Part shown: positions 2,959 to 24,690 of the stretch, one piece after another | How the letters are laid out: each line of letters starts with the position of its first letter | Position numbering within the stretch: the first letter of the stretch is position 1 | DNA from: Paraburkholderia agricolaris | Lineage (GTDB): Bacteria > Pseudomonadota > Gammaproteobacteria > Burkholderiales > Burkholderiaceae | Length of the DNA stretch: 64,000 nt | Assembly (NCBI RefSeq): GCF_009455635.1 | Contig: NZ_QPER01000001.1 | Location: 1 to 64,000, forward strand | Direction: 5' to 3' | Notes under the pieces: generated by a model | Database searches by the model: none | Seen by the model: only the letters and a program-made list of their open reading frames with translations | What the model was told of the DNA's origin: nothing | Translations under genes and position numbers: made by a program

Positions 2959-2983
2959 CGCGTCCAAAAACCAAGAACACACC

Positions 2984-3012
2984 AAGGGGCGCAGCGCCCC
3001 TTTGGCGTTTTT
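2984..3012 (+). terminator. Hairpin with T-tract after dnaN
   Basis: A near-perfect palindrome, AAGGGGCGC then A then GCGCCCCTT, is followed by TGGCGTTTTT. The stem is strong but the T-tract is short and offset, so this could be a partial terminator or attenuator between dnaN and gyrB. Confidence 0.6.
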
Positions 3013-3024
3013 ATGGTGTTTTGA

Positions 3025-5544
<2,520 letters not shown>

Positions 5545-5958: not shown

Positions 5959-8382
5959 ATGGCAATCAAGAAATCCGAGCTTTACTCTTCCCTCTGGGAA
6001 TCCTGCGACCTGTTGCGCGGAGGGATGGACGCGAGCCAGTACAAGGACTACGTGCTGGTCCTGCTGTTCATCAAGTACGTCAGCGATAAATACGCCGGGC
6101 AGCGCTATGCGCCAATCACGATTCCCGACGGTGCCAACTTCGCGGACATGGTTGCCCTGAAAGGCAAGCCGGACATTGGTGACCAGATCAACAAGAAAAT
6201 CGTCGGACCGCTGGCCGCAGCTAATAAGCTGTCGGACATGCCGGACTTCAACGATACCGGCAAACTCGGCACGGACAAGGATATGGTCGCGCGCCTTACG
6301 GAACTGATTGCCGTGTTCGAGAACCCCGATCTGGATTTCTCGAAGAACCGTGCCGACGGTGACGACATTCTCGGTGACGCGTACGAATACCTGATGCGTC
6401 ACTTCGCAACGGAAAGTGGCAAGAGCAAGGGGCAGTTCTATACGCCAGCCGAAGTCAGCCGTATTCTGGCCGCTGTCATCGGTATCGGCAGTGCGCAGAC
6501 CAGCACAGACACCACCGTGTACGACCCGACATGCGGCTCCGGCTCCTTGCTGCTGAAAGTGGGCGATGCGGCGCACACCGCAGTCACCCTGTACGGTCAG
6601 GAAAAGGATTCGGCGACCAGTGGTCTTGCGCGCATGAACATGATCCTACACGACAACCCCACGGCGTTGATCGGCCAGGGCAACACGCTGACCGACCCAA
6701 AGTTCCGGGATGGTGCCGCCCTGAAGACCTTTGACTTCGTGGTCGCAAATCCGCCGTTCTCCGACAAGCGCTGGAGCACGGGGCTTGATCCGCTCCACGA
6801 CCCGTATGGGCGTTTCGATACGTTCGGCGTGCCTCCGGCCAAGCAGGGCGACTACGCCTATTTGCTGCATATCGTGCGCAGCCTGAAATCCAACGGCAAG
6901 GGCGCGTGCATCTTGCCGCACGGCGTGCTGTTCCGTAGCAATGCGGAAAGCGAAATCCGCAAAAACCTGATTCGCCACGGCTACATCAAGGGCATCATCG
7001 GCCTGCCGGCCAACCTCTTCTACGGCACGGGCATTCCGGCCTGCATCATTGTCATCGACAAGGAAAACGCCCAGGCACGCAAGGGTATCTTCATGATCGA
7101 TGCCAGCAGCGGCTTCATCAAGGATGGTCCCAAGAACCGCCTGCGCGAGCAGGATATTCATCGCATTGTGGACGTGTTCAACCGCCAGGACGAGAGCGAT
7201 CCGCGCTACGCCCGCATGGTGGGTCTGGCCGAGATCGAGAAGAATGACTTCAACCTCAACCTGCCACGCTACATCGACAGCAGCGTGGTCGAGGATATTC
7301 AGGACATTCACGGCCACCTGCAGGGCGGCATCCCTCTGGCAGACGTGGAAGCCTTGAGCGACTACTGGGCGGTCTGCCCGCAGCTTAGACGCGCACTGTT
7401 CAATCCGCTGCGGGAAGGCTATGCCACGCTGGCCGTGGACAAGGCCGCCATCAAGCTCACCATCTTCCAGCACCCGCAGTTCGCTGCTTATCTCGAGAAG
7501 ATGGGACAACACTTCGGTGCTTGGCGGGCGCAGGCCGTTCTCGAGCTGAAGGCGCTGGACAAGGGCTTTCACCCGAAGCAGCTCATTGTTGAGCTGGCCG
7601 ATGGCCTGCTCAACCACTACGAAGGAAAGCCGCTGATCGATGCCTACGACGTGTACCAGCACCTGATGGATTACTGGGCGGAAACCATGCAGGACGATGC
7701 TTACCTGCTGGCAGCCGATGGTTGGGTGGCACAGACCTATCGTGTCATCGAGAAGACGAAGAAAGGCAAGGGCGACAACGCCAAGGTAGTCGAAAAGGAC
7801 AAGGGGTGGGCGTGCGACTTGGTACCCAAGCAGTACGTCGTGGCGCGTTATTTCGCTGCGGAGCAGAAGGCGATTGATGAGGCGAGCGCCACGCTGGAAG
7901 CCGCCAGCAGCGCCCTGGCCGAGCTGGAGGAAGAACAAAGCGGCGATGAAAGCGCGTTCAGCGGCTTCGACAAAATCAACGCGGCGGCAGTGAAGGAGCG
8001 TATCAAAGAAATTGGCAAAGACGAAGATGCTTCCGAGGAACTTGCTGTGTTGAAGCAATGGCAGTCGCTGTCCGATAAGGAATCGGGGCTGAAGAAGACG
8101 CTCAAGACACTGGAAGCCGAGCTGGATGCCAAGGCTTACGCGCAATACCCCAAGCTCACTATCGAGGAAATTAAGGCGCTCGTTGTCGAGGATAAGTGGC
8201 TCGCGGCTTTGTCTGCGACCGTGTCCGGTGAACTTGAGCGTGTATCGCAAAAGCTCACCAGCCGTGTTCGCGACTTGGCCTTGCGCTATGAATCCCCATT
8301 GCCAGTGTTGGTCGATGACGTCGCCGCACTGTCTGCTCGCGTTGAGGAGCATCTACGCAAGATGGGGGCGGTGTGGAACTGA
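5959..8382 (+). CDS. hsdM: Type I restriction-modification methyltransferase subunit HsdM
   Basis: HsdM transfers a methyl group from S-adenosylmethionine to adenine within the site chosen by HsdS; M2S acts as methylase and R2M2S as restriction enzyme. The 807-aa product starts with an HsdM_N helical domain (SLWESCDLLRGGMDASQYK), then the N6-adenine methylase domain with SAM-binding motif DPTCGSGSLLLK near residue 190 and catalytic motif NPPFSDKRW near 265. The C-terminal 300 residues are an extended helical region with a likely coiled coil around 635-665, making it longer than E. coli HsdM (529 aa). Its end overlaps the hsdS start by 10 nt, so the two are translationally coupled. Confidence 0.96.
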   Translation: MAIKKSELYSSLWESCDLLRGGMDASQYKDYVLVLLFIKYVSDKYAGQRYAPITIPDGANFADMVALKGKPDIGDQINKKIVGPLAAANKLSDMPDFNDTGKLGTDKDMVARLTELIAVFENPDLDFSKNRADGDDILGDAYEYLMRHFATESGKSKGQFYTPAEVSRILAAVIGIGSAQTSTDTTVYDPTCGSGSLLLKVGDAAHTAVTLYGQEKDSATSGLARMNMILHDNPTALIGQGNTLTDPKFRDGAALKTFDFVVANPPFSDKRWSTGLDPLHDPYGRFDTFGVPPAKQGDYAYLLHIVRSLKSNGKGACILPHGVLFRSNAESEIRKNLIRHGYIKGIIGLPANLFYGTGIPACIIVIDKENAQARKGIFMIDASSGFIKDGPKNRLREQDIHRIVDVFNRQDESDPRYARMVGLAEIEKNDFNLNLPRYIDSSVVEDIQDIHGHLQGGIPLADVEALSDYWAVCPQLRRALFNPLREGYATLAVDKAAIKLTIFQHPQFAAYLEKMGQHFGAWRAQAVLELKALDKGFHPKQLIVELADGLLNHYEGKPLIDAYDVYQHLMDYWAETMQDDAYLLAADGWVAQTYRVIEKTKKGKGDNAKVVEKDKGWACDLVPKQYVVARYFAAEQKAIDEASATLEAASSALAELEEEQSGDESAFSGFDKINAAAVKERIKEIGKDEDASEELAVLKQWQSLSDKESGLKKTLKTLEAELDAKAYAQYPKLTIEEIKALVVEDKWLAALSATVSGELERVSQKLTSRVRDLALRYESPLPVLVDDVAALSARVEEHLRKMGAVWN

Positions 8383-9617
8383 GGCCGGGATACAAGCAAA
8401 CGGAAGTTGGTGTTATCCCAGAGGATTGGGATGTGACACCGCTTGGTCGATTGGTCACGTCCGTCGAATATGGTTCGTCAGCAAAGTCCAGCACGAAAGG
8501 TTTGGTGCCAGTGCTACGCATGGGCAACCTGCAAGGCGGCAAGATCGATTGGAACGACCTTGTTTACACCGCTGACGAGAGAGAAATTGCGAAGTACGCG
8601 CTTCGCTCCGGTGACGTTTTGTTCAATCGCACGAACACGATTGACCTAGTGGGCAAGACATCCATCTATCGTGGGGAGCAGCCTGCAATCTTTGCTGGCT
8701 ATCTGATTCGCATAAACGCCAAGAAGGATCTCTTGGATTCGCACTTTCTCAACTACACCCTGAACACGGAACTAGCCAAGAAATACAGCTTCAAGGTTTT
8801 GAGCGTTGCTGTCGGCCAAGCGAACATCAACGGCCAAAAACTCAAGACCTATCCAATTCCGCTTCCGCCTACCACCGCCGAACAATCCGCCATCGCCACC
8901 GCCCTGAGCGACGTGGACGCCCTGCTGTCGGGCGTGGACAAACTCATCGCCAAGAAGCGCGACCTAAAGCAGGCTGCCATGCAGCAGTTGCTTACGGGTA
9001 AAACGCGGTTGCCGGGGTTTGATGGGGAGTGGGAAGTGAAGCGGCTCGATCAGCTTGCGAACATTCGCAGCGGTGGAACGCCAAGCACCAGCATTGCCCG
9101 ATTCTGGGATGGCGGAATTCCGTGGTGTACGCCAACGGACATCACGCAGCTGAATGGCTCCAAGTACCTTGCGCAGACGAGCCGCACGATTACGCAGGAC
9201 GGCCTGTTGAACAGTTCTGCGGAATTGATTCCGGCCAACTCCGTGGTGATGACGTCACGTGCCACCATCGGTGAGTGCGCCATCAACTCAGTTCCCGTCA
9301 CAACAAATCAAGGCTTCAAGAACTTCGTGCCGTTCGAGGCTACGGACGTGGAATTTCTCTATTACTTGCTGCAAACGCAGAAGCAAGGATTCGTTCGCTT
9401 GTGCGCAGGCAGCACATTTCTTGAAATAGGCAAAACGCAGTTGGCGGCTTATGAAGTCCAGCTGCCAACAACGAAGGAAGAACAAGCCGCGATTGCAGAA
9501 GTGTTGAGCGACATGGACGCCGAACTCGCAGCGCTGGAGGCGCGGCGCGACAAGTCCCATCTGCTGAAACAGGGCATGATGCGGGAACTGCTGACCGGCA
9601 AGACACGGCTGGTGTAA
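8373..9617 (+). CDS. hsdS: Type I restriction-modification specificity subunit HsdS
   Basis: HsdS recognises the bipartite DNA target. The 414-aa product has two target-recognition domains (about 5-170 and 213-385), each followed by a conserved helix: the first ends in QQLLTGKTRLPGFDGEWEV and the second in RELLTGKTRLV. These repeated LLTGKTRL ends are the classic internal repeat of two-domain HsdS proteins and are where domain swapping changes specificity. I chose the GTG at 8373 because it gives the expected RPGYKQTEVGVIPEDW opening and sits inside the end of hsdM. The target sequence cannot be read from the protein alone. Confidence 0.95.
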   Translation: MELRPGYKQTEVGVIPEDWDVTPLGRLVTSVEYGSSAKSSTKGLVPVLRMGNLQGGKIDWNDLVYTADEREIAKYALRSGDVLFNRTNTIDLVGKTSIYRGEQPAIFAGYLIRINAKKDLLDSHFLNYTLNTELAKKYSFKVLSVAVGQANINGQKLKTYPIPLPPTTAEQSAIATALSDVDALLSGVDKLIAKKRDLKQAAMQQLLTGKTRLPGFDGEWEVKRLDQLANIRSGGTPSTSIARFWDGGIPWCTPTDITQLNGSKYLAQTSRTITQDGLLNSSAELIPANSVVMTSRATIGECAINSVPVTTNQGFKNFVPFEATDVEFLYYLLQTQKQGFVRLCAGSTFLEIGKTQLAAYEVQLPTTKEEQAAIAEVLSDMDAELAALEARRDKSHLLKQGMMRELLTGKTRLV

Positions 9618-9626
9618 GGGACTCCA

Positions 9627-12600
9627 ATGACGGATGAGATCGGAAAATCAGAAAAAGCCACGCAGAACCGGGTCATCAAGCTGTTCACCGAGCAGCTAGG
9701 CTACGCCCCGCTCGGCGATTGGACTGATCGCGCCGGTAACAGCAACATCGAAGAAGCGTTGCTGGCGGCGTACCTGCTTGAGGCCGGTTATCGTCCTGCG
9801 CAAATCAGCCAGGCAATTTACCGGCTGAAGACCGAAGCCAACCATCCGCAGCGCAAGCTGGACGCAAACAACGAGGCGGTCTATCAGCTTCTTCGCTACG
9901 GCATCCCGGTGAAGGTCGAAGGCGACAAGGTGGCCGACACGGTCTGGCTCATCGATTGGGAACACCCGTCCCGAAACCACTTCGCGATCGCCGAGGAAGT
10001 CACCCTGGAAGGCGGGCACGAGCGCCGTCCTGACATCGTGCTCTACGTCAACGGCATCGCCATTGGCGTGCTGGAACTGAAAAACAGCCGGGTCAGTATC
10101 GGCAATGGCATCCGGCAGAACCTGTCTAACCAGCTGCCCGAGTTCAACGAATGGTTTTTCAGCACCGTGCAGTTCGTCTTTGCCGGGAACGATTCGGAAG
10201 GGTTGCAATACGGCACGACAGGCACGCAGGAAAAGTTCTTCCTCCATTGGAAAGAGGACGAAGCGGATAACAGCGGCTACAAGCTGGACAAGTATCTGCT
10301 GAAGATGTGCGAAAAGGCACGCCTCGTCGAGTTGATGCACGACTTTATCCTGTTCGACGGCGGCATCAAAAAGCTGCCGCGTGTGCACCAGTATTTCGGT
10401 ATCAAAGCAGCGCAGGAGCACGTGCGCAAACGCCAGGGAGGGATCATCTGGCACACCCAGGGGGCGGGCAAGAGCATCCTGATGGTGCTGCTGGCCAAGT
10501 GGATTCTGGAAAACAACCCGCACGCTCGTGTCGTCGTGATCACGGACCGCGACGAACTGGACAAACAGATCAAGCGTGTCTTTGAGAGTAGCGGGGAAAA
10601 GATCCATCGCACCAGTAGCGGGCGTGACCTGATGACCCGGCTGAGCGACCCGACACCGCGCCTGCTGTGTTCGCTAGTGCATAAGTTCGGCGCCGGCAAG
10701 GGGCTTGGGGACGGAGATTTCGATACCTTCATCAAGGAGCTGCAATCTCAGTCGGGCAAGACGGTGGGCGATCTCTTTGTGTTCGTGGATGAATGTCACC
10801 GCACCCAGGGTGGTCGCCTCAACCGGGTGATGAAAGCGATGATGCCATCGGCCGTGTTCATCGGCTTTACCGGCACGCCGTTGCTGAAGAGGGATGCGGC
10901 AACCAGTCTCGAGGTGTTTGGTAGTTACATCCACACTTATAAATTTAGCGAGGCGGTGGAAGACGGTGTCGTGCTTGATCTGGTCTATGAGGCACGGGAC
11001 ATTGACCAGACGCTCGGCTCCCAGGGCAAGATCGATACTTGGTTCGAAGCCAAAACCAAGGGCTTAAACGACTGGCAGAAAAACGAACTGAAGAAGCAGT
11101 GGGGCACGATGCAGCACGTGCTCAGTTCGCGCTCGCGCATGGATCGGGTTGTCGAAGACATTATTTACGACTTCAGCACCAAGCCTCGGATATCCGACGA
11201 ACGCGGCAATGCGATGCTCGTGGCATCGAGCATCTACGAGGCGTGTAAGTATTTCGCGTTGTTCCAGAAAACCCCGTTCAAGGGCAAGTGTGCGGTTGTC
11301 ACGTCGTATAACCCACTGGCGAAAGATGTGACGCTCGAAGAGACCGGGGCGAATACGGAAACCGACAAGCAGTTCATCTACAACACCTACACCGAACTGT
11401 TGAAGGACGTGCAGCCGAAGGCGGGCATGTCCAAAACGGAGACGTATGAGGATCAGGCCAAGGCCAGGTTCATCAAGGAACCGGCCAACATGAAGCTGCT
11501 GATCGTCGTGGACAAGCTGCTGACCGGATTCGACGCCCCACCCTGTACATACCTCTACATCGACAAGTCCATGCAGGATCATGGCCTGTTTCAGGCCATC
11601 TGCCGCACCAACCGGCTGGATACAGACGACAAGGATTTCGGCTATATCGTCGATTACAAGGACCTGTTCAAGAAGGTAGAGAACGCCATCGCCGTGTATT
11701 CGTCCGAGCTTGACCACAGCGCGGGCGGCGTCGAACCGGAAGTCCTGCTCGAGAGTCGGATCCATAAAGGCCGGGAGCGTCTCGACGCGGCATTGGAAGC
11801 CTTGGCGCTGCTGGTAGAAAAGGTAAAACCACCCAAGGGCGAGCTGGAATACATCCACTACTTCTGTGGAAACACCGAGATCGCGGACGACTTGAAAGCC
11901 CGCGAACCGCAGCGGGTCGCCTTTTATACCGGCGCGGTCGGCTTGCTCCGCGCCTATGCCTGTATTGCCGATGAGCTCGACGAAGCCGGCTACAGTACCG
12001 CGCAACAGGCGTTGATCCGGCAGAAACTGGAGCAGTACGTGAAGCTGCGCGAGACGATCCGCCTCGCGAGCGGCGAGACGCTGGATCTCAAGCCGTATGA
12101 GGCGGACATGCGCCACCTGATTGACACGTACATCCAAGCCAGTGAGCCGCGCAAGATTTCCGAATTTGAGAATATCGGCTTGCTTGACCTGATCGTGAAG
12201 ACTGGCATTGCCGATGCAATCGCGAAGAAGCTCAGTGAGATTAAAGATCGGCAGTCAGTTGCCGAGACCATTGAGAACAACGTCCGCAGCAAGATCGTCA
12301 AGGATCACCTGACCGATCCGGCGTACTTTGCAAAGATGTCCGCGCTGCTGGATGAGATCATCAAGAAGCGCAAGGAAAAGGCCGTCGACTACGAGGAATA
12401 TCTGAAGCAGATGGCCGATCTGGCGACGAAGGTGCACAACGGCAAGGCTGGCGATACTCCGGCGGCATTGGATACTCCCGGCAAGCGGGCACTGTTCAAT
12501 AATCTGAAAATTGCCAACGGCCGTACACCGGAACAGGCGCTGGCGCTTTCGCTCGAATTGGATGCGGCCGTCAGGCGTGTGCGTCCCGACGGCTGGCGTG

Positions 12601-12713
12601 GCGTGTTGCCTCGTGAGAACGTCATCAAGCAGGCGCTTTGGGACGTCTTGAAGGAAGATGGCGAGGTCGAGCGCATATTCCTGATCATCGAAACCCAGTG
12701 GCAGGAGTATTGA
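9627..12713 (+). CDS. hsdR: Type I restriction endonuclease subunit HsdR
   Basis: HsdR is the ATP-dependent translocase and nuclease of the complex; it pulls DNA towards the bound enzyme and cleaves at a distance. The 1028-aa product has an N-terminal nuclease domain with a D...ExK signature (RPDIVLY then VLELKNSR, about 135-155), followed by a superfamily 2 motor: Walker A HTQGAGKS near 280, DEAD-type box FVDECHRTQGG near 390 and motif III FIGFTGTPLL near 412. The C-terminal third is the helical assembly domain. It starts 9 nt after hsdS in the same operon (order M-S-R) and appears intact. Confidence 0.97.
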   Translation: MTDEIGKSEKATQNRVIKLFTEQLGYAPLGDWTDRAGNSNIEEALLAAYLLEAGYRPAQISQAIYRLKTEANHPQRKLDANNEAVYQLLRYGIPVKVEGDKVADTVWLIDWEHPSRNHFAIAEEVTLEGGHERRPDIVLYVNGIAIGVLELKNSRVSIGNGIRQNLSNQLPEFNEWFFSTVQFVFAGNDSEGLQYGTTGTQEKFFLHWKEDEADNSGYKLDKYLLKMCEKARLVELMHDFILFDGGIKKLPRVHQYFGIKAAQEHVRKRQGGIIWHTQGAGKSILMVLLAKWILENNPHARVVVITDRDELDKQIKRVFESSGEKIHRTSSGRDLMTRLSDPTPRLLCSLVHKFGAGKGLGDGDFDTFIKELQSQSGKTVGDLFVFVDECHRTQGGRLNRVMKAMMPSAVFIGFTGTPLLKRDAATSLEVFGSYIHTYKFSEAVEDGVVLDLVYEARDIDQTLGSQGKIDTWFEAKTKGLNDWQKNELKKQWGTMQHVLSSRSRMDRVVEDIIYDFSTKPRISDERGNAMLVASSIYEACKYFALFQKTPFKGKCAVVTSYNPLAKDVTLEETGANTETDKQFIYNTYTELLKDVQPKAGMSKTETYEDQAKARFIKEPANMKLLIVVDKLLTGFDAPPCTYLYIDKSMQDHGLFQAICRTNRLDTDDKDFGYIVDYKDLFKKVENAIAVYSSELDHSAGGVEPEVLLESRIHKGRERLDAALEALALLVEKVKPPKGELEYIHYFCGNTEIADDLKAREPQRVAFYTGAVGLLRAYACIADELDEAGYSTAQQALIRQKLEQYVKLRETIRLASGETLDLKPYEADMRHLIDTYIQASEPRKISEFENIGLLDLIVKTGIADAIAKKLSEIKDRQSVAETIENNVRSKIVKDHLTDPAYFAKMSALLDEIIKKRKEKAVDYEEYLKQMADLATKVHNGKAGDTPAALDTPGKRALFNNLKIANGRTPEQALALSLELDAAVRRVRPDGWRGVLPRENVIKQALWDVLKEDGEVERIFLIIETQWQEY

Positions 12714-13791: not shown

Positions 13792-15129
13792 ATGAAAAAG
13801 CGAGAAGAAATCTCTTTTCTGGGCTATGGGGGATTCATTCTTACGTTCGAGCCTGCGCGAACCGAGAGAGTCGCAGAGATTCTCGCGGAGTACGGGGAAG
13901 CGTCTGAGTCGTTTTCCGCAGAGGACTGGGCATTCGAGCGATGCGAATTTGTGTTTTTGATCCGTCGAAATCCGAACTTAGCGATATTCGCTGCTGCGCT
14001 AATGGCACGAATGAGGGGGAGTGGAGGTACGAGACGAGTCAAGATGCGTCTAAGCGACGCCGTGATTTTTCAAGATCCAATTTCGGTTCACGAGGCAAAC
14101 AACAGCAATGGATTTGTTGAGAAGATCTCGACCGCAGAACAGCTGCAGCGCATTGACGCTCAAGCGTGGACGGCACTTATAGACTTGGTTAAGAAGCTGC
14201 GTCCATTGCGTGCGCAGGACATTGATCGACTCGTCGCAAAGCGCTTGGAAGAACGCCGACTGCTTGGAGACGACAATCGTATGAGCCGGCTTACGGAGCA
14301 GCGAGATGCGGTCGGACTTTGCCTCGACATTGCAGGTTTGGATCGTAGGGCGATTTTGCGATCTGGAAACGCGTCGCGTGCGGATAGCGCGCTCTCCGTG
14401 TTGGACCTATTGGATGCTCAACCCGTGTCTGAACGCTCCCTGATAGAGCGAGACGCAAGGGTTTTTGAAGCCGCACTGGCGATAGGGAGCGTTACAGGGG
14501 AATTTGTCGGAGCAGCTGGCCGGAGCGTTCGAACATATGTTACAGACGCGACACCGATCGAGACCGCTACTGGTGTCGACCTCCTGATTTTCCAGGAGCA
14601 ATACAACAGCTTCCTGATGCTCCAATATAAAGGTATGCAGAAGGACGATGTCGTGCGAGGTTGGAGCTACCGCGTTGATGGGAGCAATCTCGATCACCAA
14701 ATTTCGACGATGAAGCGAATCCGTTCAGCTTCGCCTCCACCCGCAGGACTCACCGCACTGAGAGATCTGCGGCTTAACGACGAGCCCTTCTATTTCAAGT
14801 TTTGCGAGCGTACGAGACCAGACGCAAGTGACGATAGCTTGATCGCTGGGATCACGATGAGCGCCCCCCACATCGAGCATTTTCTTTCACTTCCGGAAGC
14901 AACCCAGCAAGGCCGCGGCCGACGAATTGGTTATGAAAATTGCCCAAGGTATTTCAATAATTCAGAGTTTGTTACCTTGGCACGTTCAGGTTGGATCGGC
15001 TGTGGCGCGGCAACCACGAGCCTGATGGCAGAAATCCTTTCTGTTCGCGAAAGAGGGCGCTCGGCTATTCTGGCGGTAATCGGGGGTCCTTCGGAACTCC
15101 GGGCGTCGGATCGGGGGCGACGCGTTTGA
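13792..15129 (+). CDS. Unrecognised 445-aa protein with nuclease-like D...QxK motif
   Basis: I cannot assign this to a named family. Residues 261-281 contain GVDLLIF, a 9-residue turn, then SFLMLQYKGM. This is a beta hairpin with Asp263 and Gln278-x-Lys280, a pattern seen in PD-(D/E)xK nucleases (compare the D...QxK of Mrr). Upstream is a mainly helical region (110-235) with an acidic helix ERDARVFEAAL that could supply the helix Glu common to such enzymes. The first 100 residues look like a separate alpha/beta domain. The last 20 or so residues are Arg/Gly-rich and may reflect a frameshift near the 3' end. It lies between a type I system and other nuclease genes, so a defence role is plausible but unproven. 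Confidence 0.7.
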   Translation: MKKREEISFLGYGGFILTFEPARTERVAEILAEYGEASESFSAEDWAFERCEFVFLIRRNPNLAIFAAALMARMRGSGGTRRVKMRLSDAVIFQDPISVHEANNSNGFVEKISTAEQLQRIDAQAWTALIDLVKKLRPLRAQDIDRLVAKRLEERRLLGDDNRMSRLTEQRDAVGLCLDIAGLDRRAILRSGNASRADSALSVLDLLDAQPVSERSLIERDARVFEAALAIGSVTGEFVGAAGRSVRTYVTDATPIETATGVDLLIFQEQYNSFLMLQYKGMQKDDVVRGWSYRVDGSNLDHQISTMKRIRSASPPPAGLTALRDLRLNDEPFYFKFCERTRPDASDDSLIAGITMSAPHIEHFLSLPEATQQGRGRRIGYENCPRYFNNSEFVTLARSGWIGCGAATTSLMAEILSVRERGRSAILAVIGGPSELRASDRGRRV

Positions 15130-15740
15130 GCTAGCGAAATTGCACGTCGCCAGCATAATGGAATTTCTGCCATTAGAGTCGACCTTTCCGTTCGGCACTT
15201 GTGTGATAGCGGCCAGCGGCTGGGAATTCGCGCGTTAACTGCGGTCCCGAGTGCTGGCGGTTACACCTAGAAACCTCATCCGACCGGCCTGGTTAGTTGC
15301 TGGAGAACAGCTATATTGAGTTTCAATGGATACTTCCGGGGCGAATGCCAGCCAGCCTGCGCGTTTGAGCAATTCGTTAAAATGCGAGCGAAACCCAAAT
15401 TGCACTCCTTAACTCATCCGCGGGCCGTGTACGACTGCTTTGCGAAACTGGGGTACCCACGAATGTGGGAGGGGCGTCGCCTTGCGGCTACCTATATCAC
15501 GATTTCTTTGTACCAAGTAACCGCTGCGCAGCCAAATTTCATCCGCTCCGATCAGCGTAGATGCATATCAAATTTGTGCTAACCGGAACGAGAGCGACCT
15601 GGATAACAGAGAGGGCAATTACCGGCATGGTTCGGCAAGCGTGAATGAGTTGGATGACTCACATGTGCCTGCCGACCGCCGTAGCCAGCGACTTACTCTA
15701 CAGGCGAAAAGGCAAATCCCACAAATGGAGAAACTGTATC
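15130..15740 (+). other. 611-nt stretch without a convincing gene
   Basis: Short open frames occur here (one of 88 codons at 15316-15582) but none shows a ribosome site, recognisable motif or codon bias like its neighbours. It may carry the promoter of the two-gene unit that starts at 15741. Confidence 0.5.
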
Positions 15741-16208
15741 TTGACTGACTACAAGAAACTTTTCGAGGACGTTTCCGAGTTCTTAACTGCGCGTGGCTAC
15801 TTGGTCGTCGTAGAGCAGGTGCGAGACGAGCTTGCAACAGGTCGACTCTCTGAAGAAAAGATTCAAACGCTCAAGGAGGTTGACGGTCGAACTATTTCGA
15901 TGTTGGATGACGCGACATTTAAAAGAAGTCCGCCTGCGGAGTTTGTGCGCCGGCAAGACTACTCAGACACTGAAGCGCTAGTACTTCTTGTGGAAGCTGC
16001 AAGGCGCGCGATCGTTGATGGCTCGGCAATGGCAGCACATATCAAATCGGATCTAGAAGATTTTGGCCTTCAAGGCCTTACATTCGAATCTGATCGAGTT
16101 GATAGGCAAGGCTACGTCGTTCCGTTAGACAGCCTTGATAGCTTGATCGTTGCGAGGGAGCGAGCATTGGCGATTGATGAACTTATCCGTTCGATCCGGG
16201 AGTCCTAA
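15741..16208 (+). CDS. Unrecognised 155-aa partner of the downstream nuclease-like gene
   Basis: No family recognised. I chose the TTG at 15741, giving LTDYKKLFEDVSEFL, because a GGAG lies 10 nt upstream; an in-frame ATG at 15645 would add 32 low-quality residues. The product is acidic and mainly helical, with no signal peptide or membrane segment. Its TAA stop is directly followed by the ATG of the next gene, so the two are almost certainly co-translated. A partner, inhibitor or specificity role for the downstream nuclease is inference from gene order only. Confidence 0.65.
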   Translation: MTDYKKLFEDVSEFLTARGYLVVVEQVRDELATGRLSEEKIQTLKEVDGRTISMLDDATFKRSPPAEFVRRQDYSDTEALVLLVEAARRAIVDGSAMAAHIKSDLEDFGLQGLTFESDRVDRQGYVVPLDSLDSLIVARERALAIDELIRSIRES

Positions 16209-16862
16209 ATGTTGACGGAAATTTCATCTGTCCTTGGAGCGGCCATTTCCGCTTCTCCGATTGCTTCGTCTGCTTTGTCCGACATTTTCGAAGCCTATAT
16301 TTTTACGCTTCTTGTCCGAGCAGCTCGCGATGAAGGCGCTACGATCAATTTCAAAAGCCGCAGCGGCGGAGCTGCAACTTCACTCATTCTCCGAACGTCT
16401 CCTGGCTGGCTTTATTCTTCAGCGCAGGATTACACGCATGCACTTCTCGAATTCCCTGGGCGACCAGCTCTGGAAGCTCACACAGGAATCAAGGTGGCGG
16501 GCAAGTCCGGTGTCCTGCATGAGTTGGATGTAGCGGTACTTGATCGAGCCGAAGCTGAGAACTGCCGCTTTAACCGTGTTTCTCCACGCTCTTCAAGGGT
16601 TCTTGTCGGGGTTGAATGTAAGTTCTACACGTCTGCATTGCAGTTGCATTTGGCTCGTGGGTTTATAGGGCTAGTCGCTGACGTGTCCTGCAAGAGTCCA
16701 TTTTTTGTCACGAACACCTCATCCCCGAGTGTGGACAAGCTGCTCAGCCACAGAGCCAAGAACGGATGGGAGAGAGATATTTCGCCGACATGTAAGAACT
16801 CTGAGGTTGAAAGGCTGGTGCATGCGTTTCGAAGCACTTTTAAGAACTACAAGGCACAGTAA
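16209..16862 (+). CDS. Candidate PD-(D/E)xK nuclease, 217 aa
   Basis: The protein shows the layout of a restriction-type nuclease core: an N-terminal helix with Glu28 (SDIFEAYIFTLL), then a strand with Asp107 (VLHELDVAVLD), then a strand with Glu136-Cys-Lys138 (VLVGVECKFY), followed by a helix and a further strand (SPFFVTNTSS). This matches E-x(n)-D-x(n)-ExK active sites. I do not recognise the specific family. It begins immediately after the stop of the 155-aa gene, forming a two-gene operon inside the defence island. Target and mechanism are unknown. An alternative is a solitary archaeal-Holliday-junction-type or Mrr-like fold. Confidence 0.72.
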   Translation: MLTEISSVLGAAISASPIASSALSDIFEAYIFTLLVRAARDEGATINFKSRSGGAATSLILRTSPGWLYSSAQDYTHALLEFPGRPALEAHTGIKVAGKSGVLHELDVAVLDRAEAENCRFNRVSPRSSRVLVGVECKFYTSALQLHLARGFIGLVADVSCKSPFFVTNTSSPSVDKLLSHRAKNGWERDISPTCKNSEVERLVHAFRSTFKNYKAQ

Positions 16863-17631
16863 GCATTTCATTTTTCACTCGAATCTTGGAGCGTAGACAG
16901 TGGCTATAAGCGCTAAAGCTCATGTCGTTGTCCGCGCGCTCCGAAAGAGCTAGCTATGTAATGACCCGTACATTGACGCCCATGGTTTGCCCACGTCGTG
17001 AATGTGACTGTCCTTCACCCAGTACGGTGAAATCTGTGGGGCAAAATGTAAGCAGGCGCTGGGGGACGATGATCCACCTCTGATCGACCAGTACGTTATT
17101 GCGGAACGGGCATAACGGCCAGCGCTAGGCTGCCGGCCGTATCGCAGGCAGGGGTTTGCAGTAAGCTGGTCATGCCGTTGCGCTCGCGGTGTCTCGTACC
17201 GGAAGGGCGCGATGGGCACCAAGTGGCACTAGGTTCGATAGTAGATCAAAGCGCCCTCGCCTAAGCCTCACGTTGGGGGCACTTTCAAAGATCAAAACTC
17301 CTCTCGCCTGCCCTGCAGGCCTAAGCGAGATTGTTCGATTCTCTTCCTCGGCCGGCCGTTGCCGAGCGCTCTGTTACGCGGCCCTCATGTGCTAGCTGTA
17401 GTGAACACGACAGCAGCTCTTACGTTCATGCTGCTGCCTTAGCTAACTGCAGGACTGGCATTGGATCGCGTGAGGACCGTCATAAGCGCGCAACAGTCTT
17501 AATGATTTAAGATTGAAATTGACGAGTATGCCGATTCTGGCTCAAGCTATTTCCCAGAATGCGTGTTCATCATGCTAATGAATTCATTGTCTGCAGCAAT
17601 TCTCAACTATTCCCGAGAAATTTTTCATCCC
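16863..17631 (+). other. 769-nt stretch with possible gene debris
   Basis: No intact gene found. A coding-looking fragment on the plus strand at about 17009-17116 reads YGEICGAKCKQALGDDDPP then LIDQYVIAERA and a stop, with a CxxxC pair, but has no start codon. It is probably a remnant. The segment nearest 17500-17630 is AT-richer and may hold the mrr promoter. Confidence 0.45.
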
Positions 17632-18543
17632 ATGGCCATCCCTGACTATCAGACTTACATGCTTCCTCTCCTTCGCCACTTGGCGGACGGAAAGGAGCAC
17701 TCGCTTCGAGAGACTGAAGATGCACTCGCTGAGCATTTCAAGCTCTCCGCAACCGAGCGCGCAGAACTGTTGCCAAGTGGCCAACAGGGGATCTTCAAGA
17801 ACCGTGTGGGCTGGGCACGAACGTACCTAAAGAAGGCGTCTCTTCTTGACGCTCCGCGACGTGGTGTCTTCAAGATCACCGAAAGGGGAATTCAGACGCT
17901 CGCATCTAATCCGGCCCGCATTGACGTGAAATATTTGGAGCGCTGGCCTGAATTTATCGAGTTTCGCGACACGGCAAAACCGCCCGGCGAATCAGCTCCG
18001 GCTGCCGACTTACCCGCTACAAAGAATACCCCGGAGGAAGCGATTGAACTTGCCTATCAGGGACTACGGGAACAACTTGGGCTGGAACTGTTGTCTCGGA
18101 TACTTTCGTGCTCACCTACATTTTTTGAGCAACTTGTCGTTGAGTTGCTCGTGGAGATGGGCTACGGTGGGTCGCGCCGCGATGCCGGGGAAAGAGTGGG
18201 CCAGACCGGTGACGGAGGTATTGACGGAATTATCAAGGAAGATCGCTTAGGACTCGACACAATTTTTATCCAAGCGAAGCGTTGGCAAGGAACAGTTGGT
18301 CGTCCTGAGATCCAGAAGTTCGTGGGGGCACTTCAGGGGCAGCGTGCCAAGAAAGGTGTTTTCATCACGACCTCGACCTATACCGCGGAGGCGACAGAAT
18401 ACGCTTCACGGATCGATACGAAGGTGGTTTTGATCGATGGAAAGCAGCTCACCGAGCTTATGATTGACTTTGATGTCGGGGTCTCAGGCTCCGCATCGTA
18501 TATCGTCAAGCGTATCGATTCGGATTACTTTGAGGATGCCTGA
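17632..18543 (+). CDS. mrr: Mrr-type restriction endonuclease
   Basis: Mrr-type enzymes cleave methylated foreign DNA, and Mrr is also triggered by stress. The 303-aa protein (ATG 17632, MAIPDYQTYMLPLLRHL) matches E. coli Mrr in length (304 aa) and layout: an N-terminal winged-helix DNA-binding Mrr_N domain (about 1-95), a linker, then the catalytic domain with Asp in GDGGIDGIIKED and the QAK of IFIQAKRW, followed by GRPEIQKFVGAL and the KGVFITTS strand. The catalytic D...QxK set is present, so it is likely active. An in-frame upstream ATG at 17575 is less likely because it adds residues unlike the family start. Confidence 0.92.
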   Translation: MAIPDYQTYMLPLLRHLADGKEHSLRETEDALAEHFKLSATERAELLPSGQQGIFKNRVGWARTYLKKASLLDAPRRGVFKITERGIQTLASNPARIDVKYLERWPEFIEFRDTAKPPGESAPAADLPATKNTPEEAIELAYQGLREQLGLELLSRILSCSPTFFEQLVVELLVEMGYGGSRRDAGERVGQTGDGGIDGIIKEDRLGLDTIFIQAKRWQGTVGRPEIQKFVGALQGQRAKKGVFITTSTYTAEATEYASRIDTKVVLIDGKQLTELMIDFDVGVSGSASYIVKRIDSDYFEDA

Positions 18544-18654: not shown

Positions 18655-18897
18655 TTAAGTGGGCGTAATAACCAACCTGCCGTGCTGTATATCTACCCGA
18701 ATCCTCCCACTAATCTCAAACCCCGCCTCCTCCAACCACCTCCCCGAAAGCCGAATCCAAGGCGCGGGCGGCAAATCTGGAAAAAATTTGACATGATCCG
18801 GCGCGAACGTTTTCATCGGCCGTGGGCGTCTTTGTGACGAAATGGTCAAGATGCGTTGGGTTACGGATGCAACTGCTTTATGATTGGCGTCAGCCAT
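18655..18897 (-). CDS. SymE-like toxin, type I toxin-antitoxin family
   Basis: SymE in E. coli is an SOS-induced toxin with an AbrB-like fold, repressed by the antisense RNA SymR and located beside the hsd and mcr genes. The 80-aa product here has the conserved SymE core: PWIRLSGRWLEEAGF near 46-60, then RIRVDIQHGRLVITPT at the C-terminus. ATG 18897 is chosen because AGGAG (18904-18908, minus strand) stands 6 nt before it. It is convergent with mrr. An antisense RNA would be expected on the plus strand over the 5' end, but I see no convincing promoter for it by eye. Confidence 0.8.
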   Translation of the reverse strand: MADANHKAVASVTQRILTISSQRRPRPMKTFAPDHVKFFPDLPPAPWIRLSGRWLEEAGFEISGRIRVDIQHGRLVITPT

Positions 18898-19667
18898 GAT
18901 CAACTCCTAGTGAAGTTAGGGTTGTTTGCGGTCAGCGGGTCGTGTGGGTGGCAGCCCATGCGTCCCGCGCTTCATCTCCTTCCTCGTTCTCCTTGATGCT
19001 CGGGTCGGCGCTTTTGCGTCTCCTTCTACCTTCCAGCGAACCAATCGTTCAGTGATGCTTTATAAACTTAACGCGGCGTGATGATCGGCTATGTTGTTAG
19101 GCATCCGATACATTTTCGCGCATTGTCGAGGGTTGTGCAACAGTATCGAACGCTCGATGAACAGCAGAACAGGGCGCACATTTCATCGCCAGCTTTGAGA
19201 CAGGCTCGCCCTGACAGACGTCGTATGAGGTCAAGCTGGTCGAAGCCCGACCGACGCCCCGCATCGCTCGACTTTCCGCCCTAAGCAGATCCAACCAAGC
19301 CTCAATAAAACCCACCGCAATGCCTAATGCATATTAGAGCGTCTATATAAGAGATATTTAACATTTTTCAATAATTCAATTTGCGCCACCCCGTAAATGT
19401 TTTGTAAAATCGCGCGATTAGCGAGGCGCGTGAAAAGCAAAGCGAACTAAAAAGAGGCGGCACATGTGAGCACATCACATAAGCAGTAGCGTGAGCGGCG
19501 GCGCCAAGCCCAGCGCCTCACAACAAACGCATCAACCAAATAAATCAGCCGTTTAAATCCGAGCAACAAATCCGGCAATAAGAGAAATACTCAAAACAAA
19601 AGCCCGCCAGAACCCGAGAGCCAAACAACCCATAACGCCCCCGCGACAGACACCCAAAGAGACCACC
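18898..19667. other. 770-nt intergenic region with AT-rich leader of the T6SS locus
   Basis: No convincing gene. The first part should hold the symE-like promoter. From about 19310 to 19420 base composition turns sharply AT-rich compared with the flanks, as often seen in front of horizontally acquired or H-NS-type-silenced operons. It ends in a long 5' leader of vgrG. Confidence 0.55.
19381..19410 (+). promoter_or_regulatory. Candidate sigma-70-type promoter of the vgrG locus
   Basis: TTGCGC (19381-19386) and TAAAAT (19405-19410) are separated by 18 nt within the AT-rich patch before vgrG. This would give a leader of roughly 250 nt. Prediction by eye only. Confidence 0.35.
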
Positions 19668-22475
19668 GTGAATTCCGCCGACCTGCTCCGCGCCTTTGCC
19701 TCCCCGTCCCTGACGCAAGCCAATCGCGCCTTCCGCCTGCACTGGGGCTCAGCCCAGTCGAGCCTTGAGCAAGTGCTGATCGCGCATCGCATCGACATCA
19801 GCGAGGGCCTGTGCTCAGGCATTGTGGGTCACGTGACGTGTCTGTCGACGCGCGCGGACTTGCCGCTCAATGCGTTCATCGGCTTGCCGCTGTCGGTGCA
19901 GATGGTCACCGACCGTGGCGCCTTGCACCCGATCTGCGCGATCGTCACCGACGCGCGCGCGGGCCAGTCGGACGGGTCGCTGGCGACCTACCAGTTGACC
20001 ATGCGCGATGCGTTATCGGTGCTGGAGGGGCGAACCAATACGCGCATCTTCCGCACGCTGAGTGTCCCCGATGTGATTGAGAAGCTGCTGGGCGAATGGC
20101 AGAAAAAGAGTCCGGCGCTCGCGCGCGCGTTCGATTTCGACCTGTCGTCGCTGGATCGCGCGAAGTATCCGGTGCGCGAGACGCTGTTGCAGTTTCACGA
20201 GTCGGACGCGGATTTCATCCGGCGGCTGTGCCGGCGCGATGGCATCGCGTGGTTCACGGCGGCGGGCAAGCGGGGCGCGGCCCCATCGTCCGACGGCGCC
20301 GGTGAGTCGCCGGTGCACACGCTGGTGCTGCTGGACGACCCGATGAAACTGCCGAAGTCGTCGGCCGGCACGGTGCGCTATCACCGCGACGCGGCCACCG
20401 AAGCGCGCGACTCGATCACGCTGTGGTCGGCCTCGCGTCAGCTCGTACCGGGCAACGTGCAGCGCGCGAGCTGGGACTACAAGAGCGCGACGGTGGCGCA
20501 GGCGTCGGAGACGAGCATCGTCGATCAGGGCGAAGCCGGCAACGACCTCGCGCAGCTGCTGCGCGATGCGGTCATCGACGTGCCGCACGCGGGCGATTCG
20601 TGGTCGGACTATGAGCGCGTCAGCAAGGCGCGCATGCTCGCCCATGAGTTGCGCTCGGCGAATGTCGATGGCGTGAGCGGCGTGCGGGATCTGGCTGTCG
20701 GCAGATGGTTCGAGTTGACCGGGCATCCGGAGGTGGATACCCATCCGCAGGAGGAGCGGCAGTTTATTGTCACCACGCTGCATCATCGTGGAGAGAATAG
20801 TCTGCCCAAAACGCTGAATGAGCGCGCGCAGGCGTTGTTTGAGGCGAATCGGTGGAGGGTGGAGGGGCCTTCGAAGGTGGCTGCTTCTGCATCGTCGGCT
20901 GGGCAGGGAAGGGCGGCGAGTAGTGCGGATGAGGAAGAGAGCCGCTATGAGAACACCTTCAGTTGCGTGAGGCGTGGTGTGCCGCTGACGCCGGCCTATG
21001 ATCCGCGGATCGATTTGCCGCGGGTTTATCCGATTACCGCGCTGGTGGTCGGGCCGCAGGGCGAGGAGGTGTATTGCGATTCGCTTGGGCGGATCAAGGT
21101 GCAGCTTCAGGGCCTGGATCCGGATGATCATGCGCACGCGCAAGGGGCGGGTACGAGCGGGACGGATAAGGACAGCGCGTTTGTGCGGGTGAGCAGTAGT
21201 TGGGCTGGGACGAACTACGGGCACGATACGTTGCCGCGCATCGGGATGGAGGTCGCGCTGGATTTCCTGAATGGGGATCCGGACAAGATGTTTGTCACCG
21301 GTGTGCTGCACAACGGGCCGAATAAGCCGGCGACGTTTAGTCATACCGGGGCGTTGCCGGGGAATCGGTTTTTGTCGGGGGTGAAGACGAAGGAGATTAA
21401 GGGTGCCCGCTATAACCAGCTCCGCTTTGACGACACGGCAGGGGAGATCAGCAGCCAACTGGCGAGCGAGCATACCTACAGTCAGTTGAACCTCGGGTAT
21501 TTAACGCAACCCCGCGATAACGGTACCGGCGAAGCGCGAGGCGAAGGCGCGGAATTGCGTAGTGACGCCAACGTCGCAATTCGCAGCGGCAAGGCGATGC
21601 TGATTTCGGCGTGGCAGCGGTTGAACGCGAAGGATGGGCAACTGGCGCGCGATGAGTACCTGCAGCTGATGCAGGAATGCGTCGAACTGTTCAAGAGTCT
21701 GGGCGACTACGCCGCGCAGCATCAGGGCGTCGCGATGGACACGCAGCCGCAGACCGATCTCGCGACTGCGGTGAAGTCCTGGAGTGACGGGAAGACATCG
21801 AGCGGCAGTGGTGATGCGTCGTCACAAGCCGTTGTCGGCGTGACTGCGCCAGCAGGGATCAGCATGGCGACGCCGAAGACCGTAGCGACTTATGCCGGCG
21901 GCAACGTGGATACCGTCGCACAGAACCATCTTCAACTGACTGGCGGCCAGCGCGTCAACGTCAACGCGGGCCAAGGCGTCTCGCTGTTCGCACATCAGAA
22001 CGGCGTGTCGGCGATCGCGAATCTCGGCAAGGTGCGCCTACAGAGTCAGGCCGACGATACGCAGATTGATTCTGCGAAGAACATCCTGCTCACCGCTGCG
22101 GGTGGAAAGCTGTCAGGTATGGCAAGCGATCAGGTCGTGCTGGTCACTTCCGGCGGCGCGTATCTGAAGCTGCAAGGGGCAAATATCGAACTCGGCTGCC
22201 CAGGCAGTTTCACGGTCAAGGCCGCAGGTCATACGTGGGCGGGTCCGGCCAGTATGAGTGCCGACATGCCGAAGTTCGACAACGCGCCGCTTGGACGAGT
22301 ACCGAAGCTTGTACGTGCGACCGATGGGCAGGCCGTGACAGGCATTGACGCAGAGGTACAGAAAGCCGCTGGCGACGTCGTCAAAGGTCAAACCGACGCG
22401 GCCGGCAAGCTATCGCCGATCAGCAGCGACCAGTTCCAGCAACTGGCCGTGAAATTCTTCAAAAAACCTACCTAA
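19668..22475 (+). CDS. vgrG: T6SS spike protein VgrG (Tle3-type locus)
   Basis: VgrG trimers form the spike of the T6SS and carry effectors. The 935-aa product has the gp27/gp5-like Rhs-Vgr module (about 1-600, with KVQLQGLDPDD and RVSSSWAGTNYG near 480-520), a DUF2345 beta-helix region (about 745-875) and a C-terminal extension of about 50 residues starting RATDGQAVTGID. Such tails, often transthyretin-like, dock lipase effectors in other VgrGs; that role here is inferred. It starts with GTG (VNSADLLRAF). The next gene, 25 nt downstream, is the Tle3-like lipase. A fragment of this gene recurs at 26491-26875. Confidence 0.95.
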   Translation: MNSADLLRAFASPSLTQANRAFRLHWGSAQSSLEQVLIAHRIDISEGLCSGIVGHVTCLSTRADLPLNAFIGLPLSVQMVTDRGALHPICAIVTDARAGQSDGSLATYQLTMRDALSVLEGRTNTRIFRTLSVPDVIEKLLGEWQKKSPALARAFDFDLSSLDRAKYPVRETLLQFHESDADFIRRLCRRDGIAWFTAAGKRGAAPSSDGAGESPVHTLVLLDDPMKLPKSSAGTVRYHRDAATEARDSITLWSASRQLVPGNVQRASWDYKSATVAQASETSIVDQGEAGNDLAQLLRDAVIDVPHAGDSWSDYERVSKARMLAHELRSANVDGVSGVRDLAVGRWFELTGHPEVDTHPQEERQFIVTTLHHRGENSLPKTLNERAQALFEANRWRVEGPSKVAASASSAGQGRAASSADEEESRYENTFSCVRRGVPLTPAYDPRIDLPRVYPITALVVGPQGEEVYCDSLGRIKVQLQGLDPDDHAHAQGAGTSGTDKDSAFVRVSSSWAGTNYGHDTLPRIGMEVALDFLNGDPDKMFVTGVLHNGPNKPATFSHTGALPGNRFLSGVKTKEIKGARYNQLRFDDTAGEISSQLASEHTYSQLNLGYLTQPRDNGTGEARGEGAELRSDANVAIRSGKAMLISAWQRLNAKDGQLARDEYLQLMQECVELFKSLGDYAAQHQGVAMDTQPQTDLATAVKSWSDGKTSSGSGDASSQAVVGVTAPAGISMATPKTVATYAGGNVDTVAQNHLQLTGGQRVNVNAGQGVSLFAHQNGVSAIANLGKVRLQSQADDTQIDSAKNILLTAAGGKLSGMASDQVVLVTSGGAYLKLQGANIELGCPGSFTVKAAGHTWAGPASMSADMPKFDNAPLGRVPKLVRATDGQAVTGIDAEVQKAAGDVVKGQTDAAGKLSPISSDQFQQLAVKFFKKPT

Positions 22476-22500
22476 TTGAACCTCGGGGCATCACAACAAC

Positions 22501-24690
22501 ATGGCGTTCCTGAATCCAGACAATCGAGTGCAAGTAGGATCGTGCCAGGGAACCACGCTCTTCGATACCCAGAACGAACTGATCGGCGTCATGCAAATGC
22601 CGCTGCCGGGTATCGTAATCTTCGTACACGGCGTGAACTCAGATGGCGAATGGTTTAAGGCGAGCGAAGAAGGGTTGTGTGCCGGACTGAATCGCCGGAT
22701 GGGCCGCTATGACGACCAGTTGTTTCACTTCGGCCCCGTTGCGGGACAAATGTCACCGGCTAGCTACATCGAAAGCTTGACCGCCGACGGCTTCATCAAT
22801 CCCAATATGAAGCCGGACACCTACATCAATCCCGATCCGTCGTTTTCACCGGTGATCCATTTCAGGTGGGGGTACAAGGCGAACAAGGAGGAACTGAAGC
22901 GGTACGGCGATAAGGTTATGCTCAATGAGCAGAACTATTGGGGAGGTGGCCCCTTCGCGAACGGCTGTTCGAGCCTTCCGGATCTGTGGCACGAAGGATT
23001 GAACGATCGGCTGTTTCTCTGGATCACCGTCCAGCATTTGAACTCAGTCAATGCCCGCAAGGTGTACGCTACGCCGCCCCGCACGTACGGGGTGCTCGCG
23101 GCACTGCGGCTGGCCAAACTGATCGAATCCATCCGGAAGAAACAGGCAGACGTGCCGATCACAGTGGTGTGTCACAGCCAGGGGAACATGGTGGGAATTG
23201 CCGCCGCTTTTCTGGGCGATCGCCTACCCGAAGTAACCGATCCACTTGGGAAGAGCGGTCGCTGTGTCGCGGATAGCTATGTCCTCGCCAATCCGCCATA
23301 TAGTCTTGTCGCTGAATTGGGCACAGACAACTGGGCGCAACGCGGTGTTCGCGACTCGTCTGGCAATGTGGGGCGCGAGATATTCGAGGCTCGCAAAGAG
23401 ACGTTGAAGGAGTATTTCAATATTCTGCGAGCGCGGGCAGATCTGGAGATGGAGGCGGCGGAACTCGACCAGGCTATGGCGAATTCACGTCCTTCGAAAA
23501 ATGGCGGCAAACCGTACGCTGCAGCGACAGATCGTGCGGCACATGGATTGAACAACAAGACCTACGGGCGGGTGACGCTCTATTGCTGTCCTCACGATCA
23601 GGTCATTTCCGCAACGACGGTACAAGGGATCGGTTGGAGAGGATTGAATCAGGACGAGATCGAGAAGACCGGAGGAGATGGTGTGTTCACGCAGCGAGTG
23701 TTCGCCTCGGGTTTCGAGGTAGGCGGCGACCAACCCTCTTATGGCTATTGGAAAGATGACTGGCGCAAGGACAAGAACCAGACACAAGGGTTTTGGTTTC
23801 CGCCATCGCCGAAAGCGCGCTTTGCGCTGGGGCGCGCGCTGCATTCGAATCAATCGACCGGGGCCAAGGTGATGACAGCTATCACCAGTCCGGTTCTCTA
23901 TCTCTTCAATTTTACTAGCGTGCCCGTAAATGCTGATCCGCCAAGGGATTGGGTCGTGCCAGTAACAGCACCCAAGCTTGATGAATCGACACGGTTCAAG
24001 CCGCAGGCGATTCGGTACGGAAAAGTGTCCGAAGTGAAAGACGGCGATGATACTAGCGATTTTAACGAGGGATACGACCCGTCTGCCGCTGCACGCAACG
24101 CGGATAAAACCAACCTTCAGGACAGTGACCCCTACGACAGCTTCAAAGGAACTGGCGCGCTAGCTGCGCAAGGCAACGAGCAAACCGAAGCGGCACAGAG
24201 GTATGAGGACCACGCGGTGTTGCGGATGGAAGCTCGACGGACCAAGAACGATGGATGGCTTGACGAACAGGGCAATGTGGCGGGTGAGGATGATCCGACC
24301 AAAGCATCCGCGGACTATACAAAATGGCGAGATGAACAGATAACGGAGTTCCTTCGCGAAGGCGAGGAAAACAATCCGACTAATCACTCGACGATCATGA
24401 CTAACCCGATGCATGCGGAGAAAGCACTGGCATATGATGTGGCAGTTGGTCTGTGTTATCTGTCGGACGCCGATCTACATGATCTGCGCTTAGAAGCTGA
24501 CTGGCGGTTCGTCAGCGGGTTGAGCAAAGACAATCCGAGCGTGAAATTTGCTGAGTATTTCCAGTATGGGAAATATCAGAAAGTCTTTCTGTCAGACTGG
24601 GTCAAGACGGACGCTGACGCGAAGATCCCTGAGAAGATCCATGACCAACGTGATGGTGGCTTCTTCTTGAAGGTGGGAGGCTATCTATGA
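22501..24690 (+). CDS. Tle3-like T6SS lipase effector (DUF3274 alpha/beta hydrolase)
   Basis: Tle3-family effectors are antibacterial lipases delivered into the target periplasm. The 729-aa protein opens with a hydrolase core: oxyanion-type segment IVIFVHGVNSDGEWF (38-52) and nucleophile elbow VVCHSQGN with Ser226, then a DUF3274-type C-terminal half. There is no signal peptide, as expected for T6SS cargo. The order vgrG-tle3-tla3 matches the Pseudomonas aeruginosa VgrG2b/Tle3/Tla3 cluster in content. The last 4 nt overlap the Tla3 start (ATGA), so effector and adaptor are translationally coupled. The immunity gene is not adjacent; the Sel1 lipoprotein downstream is the best candidate. Confidence 0.87.
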   Translation: MAFLNPDNRVQVGSCQGTTLFDTQNELIGVMQMPLPGIVIFVHGVNSDGEWFKASEEGLCAGLNRRMGRYDDQLFHFGPVAGQMSPASYIESLTADGFINPNMKPDTYINPDPSFSPVIHFRWGYKANKEELKRYGDKVMLNEQNYWGGGPFANGCSSLPDLWHEGLNDRLFLWITVQHLNSVNARKVYATPPRTYGVLAALRLAKLIESIRKKQADVPITVVCHSQGNMVGIAAAFLGDRLPEVTDPLGKSGRCVADSYVLANPPYSLVAELGTDNWAQRGVRDSSGNVGREIFEARKETLKEYFNILRARADLEMEAAELDQAMANSRPSKNGGKPYAAATDRAAHGLNNKTYGRVTLYCCPHDQVISATTVQGIGWRGLNQDEIEKTGGDGVFTQRVFASGFEVGGDQPSYGYWKDDWRKDKNQTQGFWFPPSPKARFALGRALHSNQSTGAKVMTAITSPVLYLFNFTSVPVNADPPRDWVVPVTAPKLDESTRFKPQAIRYGKVSEVKDGDDTSDFNEGYDPSAAARNADKTNLQDSDPYDSFKGTGALAAQGNEQTEAAQRYEDHAVLRMEARRTKNDGWLDEQGNVAGEDDPTKASADYTKWRDEQITEFLREGEENNPTNHSTIMTNPMHAEKALAYDVAVGLCYLSDADLHDLRLEADWRFVSGLSKDNPSVKFAEYFQYGKYQKVFLSDWVKTDADAKIPEKIHDQRDGGFFLKVGGYL

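Follow-up and report, generated by a model that had tools for sequence, protein, structure and literature searches.

A candidate two-protein defence nuclease in Paraburkholderia agricolaris and its relatives across six phyla

The first 64,000 nucleotides of contig NZ_QPER01000001.1 of Paraburkholderia agricolaris (hereafter the window) hold a two-gene unit that recalls several described nuclease systems. Both genes are on the forward strand. The first (15741..16208) encodes an acidic partner protein of 155 amino acids (aa) and the second (16209..16862) a 217-aa protein predicted to be a nuclease of the PD-(D/E)xK superfamily. NucC is a nuclease effector of cyclic-oligonucleotide-based antiphage signalling systems (CBASS) and of type III CRISPR, activated by cyclic triadenylate (cA3; PMC8682760). 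Its companion in CBASS is a nucleotide cyclase, whereas the constant companion of the pair's nuclease is an acidic helical protein. Hachiman (HamAB) likewise has two proteins, and its partner restrains the nuclease until trouble is sensed (PMC12278908), as we propose for the pair. HamB is a helicase, whereas our partner has 155 aa and no recognised domain. The nuclease genes of PrrC and RloC also lie in type I or III restriction–modification (R-M) loci, once beside an hsdR relic, but these enzymes cut tRNA and carry ABC-ATPase motifs (PMC2610378), in contrast to a PD-(D/E)xK protein with a separate partner. The type II enzymes BsoBI, SgrAI and BbvCI differ from the pair's nuclease, which has a single domain and a constant partner. 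Mrr, a restriction-type nuclease, is encoded in the same island as the pair (17563..18543).

Neither protein of the pair is named by Pfam (no match above the cut-off), NCBIfam (none at E ≤ 1), PADLOC (none at E ≤ 1) or PHROGs. The PADLOC library holds models both of Hachiman and of CBASS effector endonucleases, so the pair's lack of a PADLOC match argues against a NucC-type effector and, together with the lack of any Pfam match above the cut-off, against Hachiman (HamA with DUF1837 plus the helicase HamB). A CD-NTase gene near the pair was identified at one locus (L016), among the matches listed (25 rows for each of two PADLOC scans of neighbours). Pfam finds no Mrr_N or Mrr_cat domain in the 217-aa protein at E ≤ 1, which speaks against a type IV enzyme of the Mrr kind. 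A type II R-M system fits poorly too: type I–III R-M genes lie near the pair in at least 7 of 32 loci, and no cognate methyltransferase is constant beside it. A first-pass annotation, made from the letters of the window alone, had put the pair forward as its best candidate for an undescribed system, with both proteins outside the families known to it; the four libraries do not name them either, and our literature searches, which were of limited reach, did not find the pair.

The nuclease and its partner

The predicted nuclease structure is confident (predicted local distance difference test, pLDDT, 91.1) and contains the alpha-beta-beta-beta-alpha-beta core of the superfamily, with helices at residues 23-41 and 146-158 and strands at 88-97, 103-112, 131-138 and 163-168. 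It resembles solved PD-(D/E)xK structures, with NucC as the best PDB match in Foldseek (E 7.9e-3). The first-pass annotation had read the protein as a PD-(D/E)xK nuclease from Glu28, Asp107 and Glu136-Cys-Lys138. All of these residues are present exactly as it wrote, and the modelled fold agrees with its reading.

A search with the nuclease returned 235 relatives at E ≤ 0.01. When the window's protein was aligned with thirty of these, hand-picked among 120 listed, D25, E28, D107, E136 and K138 were invariant in all 31 rows. We then considered thirty-two distinct loci from six phyla, with repeats removed (the window, L002-L016, L019-L021, L023-L031 and L033-L036). D107, E136 and K138 are kept in 26 of them and E28 in 25, and all six loci without the active site belong to one cyanobacterial clade, so these three of the residues that the annotation had singled out are conserved outside that clade. 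One of the 26 catalytic loci (L013) has its nuclease gene split over two frames. The probable activity of the 217-aa protein would be metal-dependent DNA cutting.

The partner's frame opens with TTG at 15741, behind a Shine–Dalgarno-like GGAG (15727-15730), and closes with TAA at 16206-16208. The nuclease's ATG at 16209 abuts this stop, an arrangement already noted in the first-pass annotation, and a second Shine–Dalgarno-like motif, GGGAG, lies at 16198-16202. An alternative in-frame ATG at 15645 would lengthen the partner to 187 aa; we took the TTG as its start because relatives such as P0124 start there. Among named organisms, Paraburkholderia dilworthii has the closest relative of each protein (97% and 86% identity). 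The pair has a guanine–cytosine content of 50.6%, compared with 52.5-54.5% in 2-kb steps from 14 to 20 kb and 58.5% over the whole window.

The partner is acidic (isoelectric point, pI, 4.65), the nuclease basic (pI 9.12). As the annotation had supposed, the model of the partner consists mostly of helices, a long one spanning residues 76-107, at middling confidence (pLDDT 77.5). Structure comparison of this model gave no recognised relative, and the fold was not recognised.

A single-sequence search with the partner found ten proteins. In L002-L014, thirteen of the first fourteen genome loci, an open reading frame (ORF) of about 137-161 aa (some longer through an earlier start) lies directly upstream of the nuclease; L015 has a shorter upstream ORF. 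We built a partner profile (A3) from 22 partners, namely the window's, eight from the single-sequence search and those of the thirteen loci. It matches 71 proteins, some of them rows of A3 itself. Among the eighteen loci outside the profile, A3 places a partner upstream of the nuclease or in frame with it at E < 1e-4 in fourteen. The other four are the weak L029 (0.099; fused) and L031 (0.045) and the damaged L015 (8.5) and L016 (none). A3 had no match in thirteen control loci. Counting the fourteen profile loci, the partner is directly upstream of the nuclease or fused to it in 28/32. Searched in reverse over 244 cyanobacteria, A3 matched nine genomes once each, in all nine cases beside or inside the nuclease, and the tenth cyanobacterial nuclease (L029) has a divergent fused partner. 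The two genes are thus conserved as a pair, a point on which the first-pass annotation had staked its proposal.

Where spacing was measured (18/18), the two genes overlap by up to 20 bp or are separated by at most 3 bp. Net charge is negative in all nineteen partners, and the nuclease's pI exceeds 7.6 in seventeen of eighteen cases (the exception is L014). Partner identity falls below nuclease identity in 347 of 351 comparisons (medians 0.20 vs 0.34); on these sequences the partner family is the faster evolving. The distance matrices of partner and nuclease correlate with r 0.78 over twenty-one pairs, a value that none of 2000 permutations reached and that shared descent alone would also raise. 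At two loci the partner is damaged while the nuclease frame and active site are intact. In L015 only the C-terminal part survives, with a DDE_5 transposase gene alongside, and this locus is possibly no longer expressed; the L016 partner is broken into two frames, possibly by a sequencing slip. Taken together, the two genes make up a coherent module found across phyla, in which an enzyme of a known superfamily is joined by a companion without a recognised fold. Its catalytic half is clear, and the pair is ready for direct test.

Two more loci resemble the pair. In the Sphingomonas family sample, L078:1486-2557 (reverse strand) is a further pair, with a nuclease (E 6.2e-41) overlapped by a 138-aa ORF that scores only E 0.62 with A3 yet resembles the broken L016 partner. 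At L079:1044-2202 a distant relative of the nuclease (E 2.9e-13) is overlapped by an upstream 143-aa ORF that A3 does not recognise; this may be an outlying branch.

Distribution and cyanobacterial fusions

The pair occurs sporadically. Scanning 84,980 species genomes by pattern yielded fourteen loci. Profile A1 matched 10/244 cyanobacteria, 7/200 genomes in the family of the Micromonospora genome and 3/149 in that of the Sphingomonas genome (one seed included in each), as well as 3/350 in the phylum of the Dictyobacter genome (two seeds included). In three further groups (1/149, 1/148 and 1/117) the match was the seed itself each time. With the window's sequence alone as query, one of 369 genomes of its own class matched, namely itself. 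The group of 117 is the window's own genus, in which the window's genome alone had the nuclease; this sample is incomplete, as the P. dilworthii protein shows. Among 72,556 plasmids there was one relative. In a tree of thirty-one rows, the window's nuclease is closest to that of Acidithiobacillus and then to that of Variovorax. Given these neighbours and the sporadic occurrence, we read the distribution as horizontal transfer.

Six cyanobacterial loci (L024-L029) encode the partner and the nuclease in a single ORF of 362-437 aa. The tree requires two fusion events, though L029 sits on a long branch and its placement is unsure. L029 is fused with D107, E136 and K138 intact. The active site is gone in the fused L024-L028 (D107 to N, E136 to K, K138 to Q or E) and in the unfused L023 (E28K, E136D, K138Q); L023-L028 form one supported group (98/93). 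A DUF3352 gene neighbours the dead fusions in 5/5 cases, and three or four of these loci also have several further neighbours in common. Around the four remaining cyanobacterial loci in the comparison there was no DUF3352 match. The dead fused copies look settled and reused, as if a defence-type enzyme had been retained after loss of its active site and turned to another use.

A proposed defence role and its rivals

We think it likely, with some reserve, that the pair is a mobile defence nuclease of two proteins, the smaller of which would sense, direct or gate the cut. The computed basis of this reading consists of the fold, the active site, the linkage and overlap of the genes, the fusions, the defence company and the sporadic distribution. 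The effector would be the 217-aa protein, acting as a metal-dependent PD-(D/E)xK endonuclease. Its acidic helical companion of 155 aa would bind it and decide when or where cutting occurs, as a sensor, specificity or gating subunit, and once foreign DNA or infection was sensed the complex would cut DNA. Since no methyltransferase is constant beside the pair, either the partner restrains the nuclease or the nuclease reads something absent from the host. We infer that the two proteins bind each other, that DNA is the substrate and that the partner gates cutting, as well as the trigger and a protective effect against phages or plasmids. If the defence role is true, this would be a two-protein nuclease system with a new sensor half.

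The company of the pair supports a defence role. Among ORFs of at least 130 aa within 7 kb of the thirty-two pairs (254 ORFs, the pair itself excluded; PADLOC E ≤ 1e-15), one set of 123 hit 185 models and the remaining 131 hit 139. Control stretches, thirteen of them about 400 kb away in thirteen of the same genomes, gave nine models from 122 scanned of 123 ORFs. The neighbours of the pair thus match far more defence models than the controls. The pair of L012 lies between ZorA (1.2e-192) and SIR2 (1.1e-169) genes, with GmrSD, and that of L016 belongs to a CBASS cluster that includes genes for a SMODS cyclase, ThiF and SAVED. HsdS neighbours the pair in L008, a DrmMI/type IIG-like gene in L046, PD-Lambda-5_B/methyltransferase in L049, and a DUF4365 gene with a weak Aga match in L048. 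A reverse transcriptase model near the pairs may come from the group II intron-like ORF of L003. On this evidence the pair probably forms a defence unit.

Several points weigh against the reading. The PADLOC models just compared are redundant, their lists do not assign a match to a locus, and they are not counts of genes or loci; the tested set includes five ORFs of the window itself, and the controls matched models as well (the nine being mad, AbiLi, reverse-transcriptase-associated, SspH and DrmC). Defence neighbours were confirmed singly in only 10 of the 26 catalytic loci (the six just named, with L048 weak, plus L013, L038, the window and L037, the last as a relic), a lower bound from hand-picked neighbours, as not every neighbour was scanned singly. 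The neighbours of L002, L004 and L007, read by eye, showed no defence gene. Foldseek gave no PDB match at E ≤ 0.001, NucC being the best, and the activity of the pair is a prediction. No relative appeared in 50,697 phage records or in a pattern scan of viral contigs, and with a single plasmid relative the case for mobility therefore rests on distribution and not on a known vehicle.

A toxin–antitoxin system, in which the nuclease would attack its own host and the acidic partner would mask it, seems unlikely to us. It would suit the order of the genes (partner first) and their overlap, the acidic partners (19/19 negatively charged) and basic nucleases (17/18 above pI 7.6), and the sporadic distribution. 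Neither protein matches a known toxin or antitoxin family (Pfam cut-off; NCBIfam E ≤ 1), and a labile antitoxin would not usually be fused for good, as the partner is in six loci. The nucleases of L015 and L016 are intact beside a broken partner, which fits a partner needed for action better than one needed for survival, though a silent locus or, in L016, a sequencing slip would account for it too. The first-pass annotation had proposed a two-component defence or toxin–inhibitor system; the first half of that proposal is the one we favour, while L015 and L016 weaken the second.

At some loci the pair lies close to restriction genes. In L038, a cyanobacterium, the pair sits inside a type I operon: hsdR is followed after 9 bp by the partner, which overlaps the nuclease by 1 bp, and 6 bp further on come hsdM and hsdS. 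In L013 (Cytophagales) the order is res, mod, partner, nuclease (type III). HsdR is reduced to residues 661-797 in L037, where it lies 9 bp upstream of the partner, so there the pair has apparently survived the loss of its R-M system. The window's own pair is 3 kb from hsdR. These observations could mean that a type I or III R-M system silences the pair and that a phage neutralising the system releases it, as with PrrC. RloC shows a like pattern (PMC2610378): of 72, 8 are in R-M loci of type I or III, and an hsdR relic accompanies one. We consider such a guard quite unlikely, as R-M genes (one a relic) were seen near only seven of thirty-two pairs, a lower bound (window, L008, L013, L037, L038, L046 and L049), and the L037 relic suggests that the pair can persist when its R-M system is lost. 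A bolder version, a shade less probable still, would make the pair a DNA-cutting counterpart of PrrC and RloC, with a PD-(D/E)xK guard and a fast-evolving sensor unleashed when a phage disables restriction, which some cyanobacteria have made into a dead fused regulator among constant neighbours. The R-M-embedded copies would allow one to ask whether restriction systems carry a second, hidden backup nuclease.

A housekeeping or mobile-element role unrelated to defence (DNA repair, recombination, element maintenance) is very unlikely: the fold can serve another role, as the shared neighbours of the five dead fused copies suggest (DUF3352 in 5/5), and L006 adjoins AAA_27 and calcineurin-like phosphoesterase genes that are SbcC/D-like by eye, but the pair is rare in the genus and class samples, its neighbours match more defence models than the controls, and its active site is conserved outside one clade.

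Surroundings of the pair

The window opens with genes that read by eye as dnaA, dnaN and gyrB (1-5544). Directly behind them, on the forward strand, are hsdM, hsdS and hsdR of a type I R-M system (5959..12713; N6_Mtase 9.2e-99, Methylase_S 1.4e-46, HSDR_N 8e-39). A YgjP-type metallopeptidase gene follows, and between it and the pair lies a 445-aa ORF (13792-15129, forward strand), for which Pfam, NCBIfam and PADLOC offer no family at E ≤ 1 and PHROGs a single row at E 0.048; the other pair loci compared contain no relative. Downstream of the pair are the Mrr-type type IV restriction enzyme already mentioned (forward strand; Mrr_cat 1.2e-38, Mrr_N 3.8e-34, mREase_IV 5e-99) and, on the reverse strand, a SymE-like gene (18655-18903; PF08845, E 2.9e-13). 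The type I R-M, Mrr and SymE-like flanks reported in the first-pass annotation are therefore all supported by family matches. Beyond them, on the forward strand, a VgrG gene and then a gene for a Tle3-family phospholipase effector (type VI secretion system) occupy 19668-24690.

Other genes adjoin the pair elsewhere. In Sulfurisoma an FRG-domain gene (L009:8711-9586) lies directly downstream of the pair, and in L013 a Peptidase_C70 (papain-like protease) gene (L013:8662-9945) stands directly behind the res, mod, partner and nuclease genes.
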